DNA from: a virus
Reading direction: 5' to 3' (one strand)
Length of the DNA: 64,000 nt
IMG/VR virus record: IMGVR_UViG_3300001846_000239
Coordinates: 48,995 to 112,994 of that record
Shown here: piece by piece, positions 32,377 to 42,870 of the stretch
How positions within the stretch are numbered: position 1 is the first letter of the stretch
Layout of the letters: each line of letters begins with the position of its first letter
Position numbers and translations under genes: made by a program
The notes under the pieces: model-generated
What the model saw: only the letters and a program-made list of their open reading frames with translations
Told to the model about the DNA's origin: nothing
The model's database searches: none

Positions 32377-32417
32377 CAAAAAAGTCTAAAAAAAGCGCAT
32401 TTTTTTTAAAAAAAGTG

Positions 32418-39001: not shown

Positions 39002-39076
39002 ATGACTCGTAAAAAAGCTTATGCTGAGATGGTAATGTTTGAGGGTCCCTGCAAAAGGGACCCTTTTTTTATTTAG
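39002..39076 (+). CDS. Possible tiny peptide running through terminator
   Basis: 24 codons (MTRKKAYAEMVMFEGPCKRD...) with GGAAGG upstream. Its last third is encoded by the terminator stem, which is unusual; it may be a chance frame. Confidence 0.3.
   Translation: MTRKKAYAEMVMFEGPCKRDPFFI
39042..39070 (+). terminator. Intrinsic terminator after the gene 32 unit
   Basis: AGGGTCCCT (39042-39050) and AGGGACCCT (39056-39064) form a perfect 9-bp stem with a five-base loop, followed by seven T. It separates the plus-strand gp32 unit from the convergent minus-strand tail genes ending at 39073. Confidence 0.93.
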
Positions 39077-40980
39077 AAGGATACTGTTTGAGATACTCTG
39101 TTGACTGGAGTTTGGTTGATAATACTAATATTTTGCTTAGTACTACTATCAGAGCTTGCTACTGTGACTGGAGCACTTGTTTCAACCGGTCTTTCTGGCA
39201 TTCTTAATTCAATATTTTCAGCTGATAGATTGATTACCGCATCACCCTGTATGCTAGGAGAATTTTGTACTGCCGCAGATGGGGTTGAAGGGTTTTGAAT
39301 AAGCTGTAACATTTCGTTTGCTTTTTTGATTGTCGCAACGGCTGCTTCAGCATCATCACCAAGGTTAGCAAGACCTTTTGTCTTAAAGTCTCTACCTTCA
39401 TAGATTGTTCCACCCGACATAATGACTTCTAATACCTTCATGTATTCGGCCAGATCTTCAACCATATCGTCAAGATCTAATGTCAATCCATCCATCTTGG
39501 TAAGTTTAGCAAATGACTCAGCAAAGTGATCAAACGCAGTGGCACCGTCCTCGATAAGTTGTGCATTCTCACCAACCTTCATAGCGGCTTCAATAGGACT
39601 TTCACCACCTACAAAGAATTTAACAATACCTGCACCAAGATCAGCAATCGCATTTAGACCTTTACTTGCAGCAAATGTTGATAAGCCTGCACTCAAACTT
39701 AGCAATGCATCGTTAGCTCGTGATGTTCTTTCATAGTCTGCATCTTCACCGATAGACAATAAGGTATTTACCTGTTCTTTAATTGTATCAGCAAAATCAC
39801 CTTCGGTAAATTTATCAATAGCATCTGCAGTACTATTAGCACCTTTACCTATCGCAAATGCGACAAGACCAAGTGACAATCCACTCATTGTTTTACGGAA
39901 TGCAGTTGTATCACCAGCCTTACCTAAATCAATCGATAAAAGTGTTTCAACCTCACGCTTAATATCTTCGGCAAAGTTTTCGCCAGAGAATTTAGTTATC
40001 GCATCACCAACGCCAGAACCAGTTTTACCTATGGCAAAGGCTACAAGACCAAGAGCTAAACCGCCCATAGTCAATGCGAAGTCACCAACTTGACCAGCAG
40101 TACCAGTATCGATAGAGATTAATGTTTCTACTTCTCTCTTGATATTGTCTGCAAAGTTTTCACCTGATGTAAATTTGGTTACTGCGTCAGCAACACCGGA
40201 TCCAGCTTTACCTACTGCGAATGCAGCAAGACCAAGACCCAATGCACCCAGTGTAAGAGATACTCCAGCCACACGCTCGGGTGTCATATTTTCTAGATCA
40301 GCAATGGCTAGCAAATCATCAATATTACCTCTGATGTTTTGAATCCAATCGCCATTACCTTCGAATCTACTTACGGCTTTACTTGCTACTTCACCTAATG
40401 AGAATGCGGCAAGGCCTAAACCGAGAGCACCCATTGTAGCAGAAACAGAGGCTACATTTGCTACGGTCATTCGGTCAGATTCGGCTATACTTAAAAGCTC
40501 ATCAACGTTTTCTTTAATCTTTTCTGTATCTAATTCACCAAATTGTTCCATGGCATAGGTCAAACCAGCTGCACCAACACCAAGACCAGCAAGTAATGCA
40601 CCTGCACCCATTGCAATTGGTCCCATCATACCGCCTAGTTTACTTAATATGCCACTACTCTTCCTGGCTTCTGCACTATCTGGAGAAGCTTTTGTAGTAA
40701 TACCATCGGCCAATAGATCTTTAATCTCTTCGAATATAAGACCTGATTCTCTATTCTTTTCGATCTCTGCAAGGCGACTATTATCCATTGACTCAAAGAA
40801 GTCATTAAATACAACATTCAGGCTTGCACTTGTTTCTAGTGCAACCTGTTGCATTTTCTTTAATTCCAAAAGATGCCGACGGGTATTTCTGCCATCACGT
40901 TCAATCTCGCCAGTGGCGCGATTGTTTTCTGACATTAAATCAATTAATTCTCTTATATCGTTTCGATTTTCGTCGGCCAT
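39073..40980 (-). CDS. Putative tail tape-measure protein (gp29-like)
   Basis: 635 residues. N-terminal helical region (1-110), a hydrophobic Gly/Ala stretch (about 113-145), then five tandem repeats of about 60 residues from about 157 to 460, each with a helix ending in LLSI/LISI, a hydrophobic GLGLAAFxxGK segment and a linker such as GENFADNIKREVE. The C-terminal part is acidic, then low-complexity. T4 gp29 (590 residues) measures a tail of similar length; repeats and hydrophobic segments are typical of tape measures. Synteny with gp26-like and tail-tube-fold genes supports the call; direct similarity to gp29 is not claimed. AGGAAG precedes the ATG. Confidence 0.6.
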   Translation of the reverse strand: MADENRNDIRELIDLMSENNRATGEIERDGRNTRRHLLELKKMQQVALETSASLNVVFNDFFESMDNSRLAEIEKNRESGLIFEEIKDLLADGITTKASPDSAEARKSSGILSKLGGMMGPIAMGAGALLAGLGVGAAGLTYAMEQFGELDTEKIKENVDELLSIAESDRMTVANVASVSATMGALGLGLAAFSLGEVASKAVSRFEGNGDWIQNIRGNIDDLLAIADLENMTPERVAGVSLTLGALGLGLAAFAVGKAGSGVADAVTKFTSGENFADNIKREVETLISIDTGTAGQVGDFALTMGGLALGLVAFAIGKTGSGVGDAITKFSGENFAEDIKREVETLLSIDLGKAGDTTAFRKTMSGLSLGLVAFAIGKGANSTADAIDKFTEGDFADTIKEQVNTLLSIGEDADYERTSRANDALLSLSAGLSTFAASKGLNAIADLGAGIVKFFVGGESPIEAAMKVGENAQLIEDGATAFDHFAESFAKLTKMDGLTLDLDDMVEDLAEYMKVLEVIMSGGTIYEGRDFKTKGLANLGDDAEAAVATIKKANEMLQLIQNPSTPSAAVQNSPSIQGDAVINLSAENIELRMPERPVETSAPVTVASSDSSTKQNISIINQTPVNRVSQTVSF

Positions 40981-40990
40981 ATCTTACTTC

Positions 40991-41314
40991 CTACTTTTTA
41001 CCAAAGTTTTGTGTTCCAAAGAAAGCTGCTACAATACCAGCAACTGCAACAAAATATGTTGGAGCCATATCACCCAGTACTTCCATTGCCTGATCTAAAC
41101 CAACCAGGGATGCAACTACAACTGCGAATGGATATAGTAATAGTCCACCTAATGCAAACCATGTCATTTTACGTTGCGCATCACGCATTGCATCTGCATC
41201 ATCGAGTTCTTTACGTTTGAACTCAAGATACATCGCATGTTCTTCGTCAGATACTTTACCATCACCGTTTGTATCTGCTGGATGGTCAGGCTTCATTTTT
41301 ACTTCTTCTGTCAT
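40991..41314 (-). CDS. EF-hand membrane protein in tail gene cluster
   Basis: 107 residues. DTNGDGKVSDEEH (about 14-26) is a canonical EF-hand calcium loop, followed by a charged helix and two hydrophobic segments about 50-72 (MTWFALGGLLLYPFAVVVAS) and 83-100 (YFVAVAGIVAAFFGTQ). I recall similar proteins in cyanophages. Calcium-dependent membrane interaction during infection, or a holin-like role, are both possible. Its ATG overlaps the stop of the frameshift extension. Confidence 0.75.
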   Translation of the reverse strand: MTEEVKMKPDHPADTNGDGKVSDEEHAMYLEFKRKELDDADAMRDAQRKMTWFALGGLLLYPFAVVVASLVGLDQAMEVLGDMAPTYFVAVAGIVAAFFGTQNFGKK

Positions 41315-41499
41315 CGTCTTGTCCTTTGTTTAATTTTTTCGTTTTCGTCTTCAATATGTTGCTGCAATAGGCTAACATATATCTGCCTCTCCCATGGTAA
41401 CATATTATCAAGCTCTGTTAAACTATACTTGTGATGTTGAACTAATGCGAAGTTTGTCTTATAATGATTGGTCAAACTCTCATGTGAGAGGCCTATGAA
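41311..41499 (-). CDS. C-terminal extension read by -1 frameshift from the gp26-like gene
   Basis: 62 codons plus stop in the -1 frame relative to the upstream gene, beginning at the T8 run. The peptide is well-formed: HHKYSLTELDNMLPWERQIY then VSLLQQHIEDENEKIKQ. This frame has no ATG or GTG before its conserved part (only an internal TTG), and upstream it is closed by a stop just before the slip site, so access by frameshifting is the simplest explanation. The charged W-E-R-Q-I-Y helix pattern resembles the second-frame domains of tail-assembly chaperones. The stop overlaps the next ATG. Confidence 0.65.
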   Translation of the reverse strand, partial: FIGLSHESLTNHYKTNFALVQHHKYSLTELDNMLPWERQIYVSLLQQHIEDENEKIKQRTRR

Positions 41500-42194
41500 A
41501 AAAAACTTTGTAGACCTCTTAGCTCTACGTTAGATTTCTCTCCACACTTATGGCAAGTGATTTCATCTTTATATTCAACAGCCGGTATAGCTTGGAAGAA
41601 TGTTTGCAATTTCTTGAATTGCGTAGAGTTTAAGTTTTCAATAAACTCTTGTACCTCTTCCTTACTGGTCTGACTTCTGTCATATACCGCATCTTCATCA
41701 AATATACAATCAACACAACTTACTAGTAAGTCCATCACACCTTCAACGCTGTCAAGTTTTTCTATATCTAATTCACCAAATGTTGCAACAGATGGATAAG
41801 ACATCTTGACACCAATATCATCAGTTAACATGATAACGTTATCATCTTTTACATTTGCCATTTTTACATCATCAACGTTGATAGTCAGTGGATTAAGTTC
41901 TTCACAGTGTTCGCACTTAATCTGTAGGTTCATTTCTTCGCCAACTGACTTGCCTCGCAATTGCAAGAACATATATTCAATGTCAAATGTAGTTAATTTA
42001 GTGACATCATCCAAACCATAACATGATTGGATAACATCTTTTACCGCGTTGGAAATCTGCAGAGGATCCGCTGATTCCATTGCGACCATCAATACCTTCT
42101 CTTCTTTCACAAGATAAGGTCTCATCTTGAGCGTTTCGCCGGTAGACGGCAACTTAATGTCGTACCTTGGTACGCTCATCTTGGGTAAAGCCAT
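41493..42194 (-). CDS. 26: Baseplate hub/tail assembly protein gp26-like
   Basis: 233 residues. IKLPSTGETLKMRPYLVKEE and TTFDIEYMFLQLRGKSVGEE are the hallmark segments of the gp26-like family in T4-like phages. Two CxxC pairs (CEHCEE and CHKCGE) predict a zinc ribbon. The gene ends SFFS just after a T8 tract; a -1 slip there would continue for 62 residues. AGGAG precedes the ATG. Neighbour of tail-tube-fold and tape-measure genes. Confidence 0.8.
   Translation of the reverse strand: MALPKMSVPRYDIKLPSTGETLKMRPYLVKEEKVLMVAMESADPLQISNAVKDVIQSCYGLDDVTKLTTFDIEYMFLQLRGKSVGEEMNLQIKCEHCEELNPLTINVDDVKMANVKDDNVIMLTDDIGVKMSYPSVATFGELDIEKLDSVEGVMDLLVSCVDCIFDEDAVYDRSQTSKEEVQEFIENLNSTQFKKLQTFFQAIPAVEYKDEITCHKCGEKSNVELRGLQSFFS
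41498..41505 (-). other. T8 slippery site for predicted -1 ribosomal frameshift
   Basis: On the minus strand the codons AGT TTT TTT TCA TAG contain T-TTT-TTT-T immediately before the zero-frame stop. Slippage by -1 gives TTT TTC ATA GGC and a long open frame. Confidence 0.65.
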
Positions 42195-42219: not shown

Positions 42220-42870
42220 TTAATTAAATATTGTACCAACCGCAGACAATGTAGATTGAACCGGCCCTTCTGGTACATAGTTTTCGTAACTCAAAGTCAC
42301 ACTCATTTTCTGAACAGTATTTTCAGCATTACTGTCCAGGTTTACCGCATTCACAGTGATTGGAAATGCACCTTCCAATCTAACCGCATATACTGGTACG
42401 TTATCCTGATTTAGCTGTTGTATAACTATATCAGTCTGAAAATCTTTTTTATAACCTGCTCTGTATGTATTCATATCAATGATACCACTCATCCATGTGT
42501 CAAACATTTTCTTGACATAGTAATCATTGGTAAGCAGGAATGTCATTGTCACATCTTCATTGATTACTGTATATGGCACCTTGATCGTTTGTTTATCGGC
42601 AGTGTAATCAATCGTTGCAATCTGTCTTCCAGGCAATTGTACTGACTCGCATAGAATAGAGATATCTCTTGGGTCAGGTATAATATTAGTAGGCGACGCA
42701 CCTGCAATTGCATTTCTTGCAAGATCACCAACAAGAGAACCAATACTCGAGTTCAAGAGTGACTTGAATGAATTGGATGTCGGGGGTGTAAAGAACACAT
42801 TAAAACGGTTTTGCATTGCAATACCGCCCTTCTTAGCAATTGTTGATTTAAGATCGTCTATACTGTTCAT
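42220..42870 (-). CDS. Tail-tube-fold protein (gp54/gp19-like)
   Basis: 216 residues. QNRFNVFFTPP near the N-terminus, CESVQLPGRQIATIDYTAD and TVINEDVTMTFLLTNDYYVK in the middle and MSVTLSYENYVPEG near the end follow the tail-tube fold shared by T4 gp19 and gp54. Being away from the sheath/tube genes and next to hub genes, it is more likely a tube initiator (gp54-like) than the main tube protein. Start overlaps the stop of the upstream gene. Confidence 0.75.
   Translation of the reverse strand: MNSIDDLKSTIAKKGGIAMQNRFNVFFTPPTSNSFKSLLNSSIGSLVGDLARNAIAGASPTNIIPDPRDISILCESVQLPGRQIATIDYTADKQTIKVPYTVINEDVTMTFLLTNDYYVKKMFDTWMSGIIDMNTYRAGYKKDFQTDIVIQQLNQDNVPVYAVRLEGAFPITVNAVNLDSNAENTVQKMSVTLSYENYVPEGPVQSTLSAVGTIFN

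Follow-up and report, generated by a model that had tools for sequence, protein, structure and literature searches.

A predicted -1 frameshift joining gp26-like and gp51-like tail assembly chaperone domains in a marine T4-like virus

The lambda chaperones gpG and gpGT occur at a molar ratio of 30:1; both bind the tape measure, and the binding partner of the T domain is the major tail protein (PMC5009743). The same 2016 review describes the G-T frameshift as a conserved feature of long-tailed phages 'except T4' (PMC5009743). Later papers credit the identification of the tail assembly chaperone (TAC) genes of T4-like phages to Vladimirov, Gautam & Davidson 2022 (Virology 566:9-15), which is cited in PMC12846349 for polyT slippery sequences in T4-like TAC-N genes, and in PMC10274946 for the existence of T4-like phages in which the short and the long form each have a gene. 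Hence, going by these citing papers, the frameshifted TAC arrangement is already known from T4-like phages, contrary to the first-pass annotation of the present locus, which was aware of no such description. The locus is a well-supported further case of this kind.

The 64-kb window analysed here is a fragment of a marine T4-like virus and corresponds to positions 48995-112994 of a record 112,994 bases long. A gene on its minus strand (41493..42194) encodes a 233 aa gp26-like protein of the T4_baseplate family. Profile searches match it to PF12322 (E=3e-63, 213.8 bits against a cut-off of 24.5, residues 9-232 of 233) and phrog_150 (E=6e-69). The zero frame ends CAA AGT TTT TTT TCA TAG, placing a T_TTT_TTT slippery heptamer (41499..41505, minus strand; zero-frame AGT TTT TTT) one codon ahead of the TAG stop (41493..41495, minus strand). 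The heptamer lies within a T8 run (41505..41498); the window has just one more homopolymer of 8 bases, likewise a T8, at 32400-32407 on the plus strand. A -1 slip after TTT TTT gives access to FIGLSHES...RTRR, a stretch of 62 codons (41499..41314) closed by a TGA at 41313..41311, such that the full extension occupies 41311..41499 on the minus strand. The TGA and the start codon of the next gene (ATG, 41314) overlap as ATGA. The predicted gp26/-1 fusion is 294 aa long, its junction reading ...GLQSFF up to the slip and FIGLSHESLTNHYK thereafter. All these elements agree with the first-pass annotation, which had given the same coordinates and named the gp26-like gene, its zero-frame end, the T8 run, the 62-codon extension and the stop overlapping the next ATG. 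Among window ORFs of at least 100 codons on both strands, the gp26-like ORF alone combines an X_XXY_YYZ heptamer in the last 20 codons with a -1 extension of at least 40 codons.

Conservation was assessed over 91 loci of this layout (79 from viral contigs and 12 from phage records), not counting the window. A T_TTT_TT(T/C/G) heptamer is found in 91 of 91, as TTTTTTT (76 loci), TTTTTTC (13) or TTTTTTG (2), and the window adds one further TTTTTTT. The relatives bearing it include KVP40 and rhizobiophages, with fusions ~30% identical. The first-pass annotation had suggested looking in homologues for a conserved T7-T8 run, the absence of which would speak against slippage: the heptamer is kept throughout, while the run itself varies from T6 to T8. 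The codon before the six Ts is AGT, AAT, GAT or TCT, with a varying amino acid (S/N/D), and its third base is T in each of the 26 lineages (<70% protein identity), against a T-ending share of ~76-80% for AAY, GAY and AGY codons in the rest of the same genes. Two rhizobiophages carry TTT TTG for TTT TTY, a change of the zero-frame F to L that retains the six Ts. The spacing of the TAG, one codon past the heptamer, is the same in nearly all relatives. Pelagibacter phage Mosig keeps T_TTT_TTC but lacks the usual TAG, with gp26 ending about nine codons later and the gp51 part annotated from an internal ATG.

The second-frame peptide, which the first-pass annotation had also proposed to compare in homologues, is likewise conserved. 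The extension measures 57-66 codons across all 91 loci, and it has a median dN/dS of 0.18 when translated in the -1 frame, whereas the two alternative frames give 1.3 and 2.5; the corresponding value for gp26 itself is 0.22. The -1 extension is under purifying selection. We consider the frameshift signal genuine and of ancient origin.

The -1 peptide matches phrog_634 (gp51, 'baseplate hub assembly catalyst') with E=1.2e-27 over 60 of 63 residues, and is the only phrog_634 match in the 113-kb record, which yielded no second gp51. In the T4 group (represented by phage ime09 as T4 proxy), Aeromonas Aes012 and Shewanella Thanatos-2, gp51 is encoded by itself, as a protein of 249 aa. Residues 1-201 of the T4-type gp51 are themselves a gp26-type PF12322 domain (E=3e-55), and hhalign aligns the predicted 294-aa fusion to T4-type gp51 over 239 columns, including the C-domain, with a probability of 99.1%. 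The fusion thus has the architecture of T4's single gene, and the extension is homologous to the T4 gp51 C-terminal domain. Cyanophage and marine vibriophage gp51 have been noted as short, truncated by ~200 residues (PMC3037559). This 'truncation' can be explained by the N-terminal part being gp26 in another frame. In many public records the gp26 and gp51 parts are entered as distinct genes, or the latter is left unannotated.

By sequence, no convincing relatives were found among solved structures. An AlphaFold model of gp26 (pLDDT 85) gave no significant match to the PDB with Foldseek alone. VIA re-alignment of the model placed 3fgx, 3klu (YqbN) and 2ob9 (HK97 TAC) first, with Z 7.5-7.7 over 82-84 residues, while the next row reached Z 3.2. 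We take 3fgx and YqbN to be TAC-like chains. A Z of 7.5 covers one domain of ~80 residues and, being below 8, lies at a level reachable by chance and is in itself no proof. The match is nevertheless persuasive because the only hits well separated from the remainder are three chains of chaperone type, suggesting a TAC-like fold for the gp26 model. The extension is predicted to form three helices, with moderate confidence (pLDDT 77).

Taken together, the heptamer, the -1 selection, the gp51 homology and the fold similarity to HK97 TAC make it very likely, with a probability of roughly 0.93, that the locus encodes a TAC-N/TAC-NC tail assembly chaperone pair made by -1 programmed frameshifting. 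The mechanism put forward by the first-pass annotation is thus strongly supported; expression, slippage itself, its rate and the chaperone function are inferred. The majority of ribosomes would halt at the TAG and produce TAC-N, the short form of 233 aa (gp26). The minority slipping by -1, with two tRNA-Phe on T_TTT_TTT, would re-pair on TTT TTT, pass the TAG out of frame and produce TAC-NC, a long form of 294 aa that ends in the 62-residue gp51 C-domain (TAC-C). If the pair works as gpG/gpGT do in lambda, TAC-N would coat the tape-measure protein and the C-domain of the rarer long form would recruit tail-tube subunits. The short:long ratio would follow slippage efficiency.

The second peptide could instead be a separate small gp51 with its own translation start, as in current GenBank annotation, whether at a TTG or other non-AUG codon or by reinitiation at the gp26 stop. 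Records do list 'baseplate hub assembly catalyst' ORFs in their own right, with varied starts. The window, however, has no ATG or GTG near the start of the -1 frame, as the first-pass annotation had noted. Its sole candidate there is a TTG at 41475 (54-aa ORF), which is not conserved, as many relatives have a different codon there; the extension contains a further ATG at its codon 34. ATG or GTG is missing near the slip point in 42 of 52 representatives, 27 of which have no TTG either, so that a strong start in the homologues, which the first-pass annotation had seen as counting against frameshifting, is absent from most. An ATG at extension codon 18-19 is common among relatives, but the window has V for M there, and the peptide is conserved directly from the heptamer on, ahead of any such ATG. 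In KVP40, Cr30, EniLVp02 and rhizobiophages an ATG overlaps the gp26 stop, which favours a separate gene; lineages with an ATG in this position nevertheless keep the heptamer, with the exception of the Ackermannviridae. Hence, in KVP40, Cr30, EniLVp02 and the rhizobiophages, reinitiation could add to slippage. No start codon of the extension's own is conserved, and we regard translation as a separate gp51 as very improbable.

Slightly less probable still is slippage of RNA polymerase, rather than the ribosome, on the T8 run to give a mixed mRNA population. Such slippage becomes possible at about the length of T8, but many relatives have only T6 or T7 (TTTTTTC; GTTTTTTTA), and the constant feature is the frame-specific X_XXY_YYZ heptamer as opposed to run length. 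Homopolymers are prone to sequencing error, but a misread run within one continuous gp26-gp51 gene is refuted by the relatives, as the same -1 relation recurs in the 91 loci, isolate genomes included, with T6, T7 and T8 in differing contexts.

Ribosomal frameshifting at the heptamer might be assisted by flanking elements. A Shine-Dalgarno-like AGAGG (41515..41519, minus strand) lies 9 nt upstream of the heptamer, where it could act as a stimulator; dnaX has an SD-like element in a similar placement. A peak of anti-SD pairing is seen at this site across 35 sequences. Measured against the demand of the encoded amino acids, there is no excess of pairing (mean z -0.35, 5 of 35 with p<0.05); AGAGG or AAGGG is suitably placed in most sequences but is accounted for by the coded K/R/E-G-L, and we rejected it as a stimulator. 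On the 3' side, a possible stem-loop, CTCTC-ACAT-GAGAG (41477..41490, minus strand), starts 8 nt past the heptamer. Across sequences, RNA structure 3' of the heptamer exceeds the synonymous-codon null: the 45 nt immediately downstream have a mean z of -1.7 against shuffles of synonymous codons, folding more stably at p<0.05 in 16 of 35 sequences, whereas 16 control stretches gave means of -0.02 to -0.93 and reached this level in 1-8 of 35. By the same null, the window's own CTCTC-ACAT-GAGAG hairpin alone is not significant (p=0.25). A conserved covarying stem-loop was discarded, with RNAalifold returning 7 weak pairs and zero compensatory changes.

The surrounding gene order is a tail-tube-type gene, gp26/gp51C, a 107-aa gene and a 635-aa gene. 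The first of these, directly upstream of the gp26-like gene (42220..42870, minus strand), is gp19/gp54-like, with matches to PF06841 (E=8e-10) and phrog_45 (E=2e-38). The 107-aa gene (40991..41314, minus strand) is the one sharing the ATGA overlap, and most close relatives have a gene of ~104-128 aa in its place. Its product shows a weak EF-hand-like match near the N-terminus (DTNGDGKVSDEE, E=0.009, under the cut-off), followed by two hydrophobic segments. The 635-aa gene (39073..40980, minus strand) is a candidate tape measure only by virtue of its position, since its place is conserved in relatives and the length there is usually ~560-760 aa; in Cr30, the gene in this place is annotated as tape measure. 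The protein has several internal repeats (…GALGLGLAAFxxGK… …IDDLLxI…). A search for tape-measure homology gave no match to profile libraries, Mosig or KVP40, and a marginal low-complexity match to Cr30. The first-pass placement of the chaperone gene next to the tape measure is therefore plausible only, with the 107-aa gene lying between the two and the 635-aa gene having no detectable tape-measure homology.

Six records from Ackermannviridae and similar Vibrio phages retain gp26 and a -1 ORF, with the heptamer replaced by NTT TTY NNN TAA. The -1 ORF has weak gp51 homology (E ~1e-3) in the two tested. A TAATG overlap occurs in four of the six, and no ATG is present at the gp26/-1 junction of Kuttervirus PhiSH19 and Klebsiella Croc_ER14. 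It is possible, if somewhat short of an even chance, that the gp26/gp51 family has switched its route to the long chaperone more than once, with T_TTT_TTY slippage in the window, cyanophages, KVP40 and rhizobiophages, two distinct genes in the T4 group, and Ackermannviridae following yet another route.

Among described systems, the TAC genes of Pakpunavirus and Vandenendeviridae belong to other myovirus families and are likened to the window by the arrangement of the site: a T-run -1 site, GTTTTT, at the 3' end of TAC-N, with the -1 frame open in all members (PMC12846349). HK97 TAC (2ob9), YqbN (3klu) and rbstp2171 (3fgx) superpose on gp26 residues ~1-86 with Z 7.5-7.7; gp26 differs from them in its roughly twofold length and additional beta-rich parts, and sequence identity is 1-12%. 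Lambda gpG/gpGT (Xu, Hendrix & Duda; PMC5009743) resembles the predicted pair in comprising a short chaperone and a rarer -1 extended form encoded in the tail module. No sequence homology between lambda G/T and the window proteins was detected within the profile libraries. The lambda slippery heptamer is G_GGA_AAG, in contrast to the T_TTT_TTT of the window.

The closest comparison is with T4-like gp26 and gp51, which share the gp26-like N domain and the gp51 C-domain with the window, T4 gp51 aligning with the whole predicted fusion. T4, Aes012 and Thanatos-2 differ in that each form has its own gene, 26 or 51, whereas the window would make both from one gene through a -1 slip. Vladimirov and colleagues are said to have found the frameshift conserved in several T4-like groups, with T4 itself reportedly using genes 26 and 51. 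For an abundant marine T4-like group, the present locus supports a predicted classic tail-chaperone frameshift among relatives of T4, the phage singled out as the exception in the 2016 review (PMC5009743).
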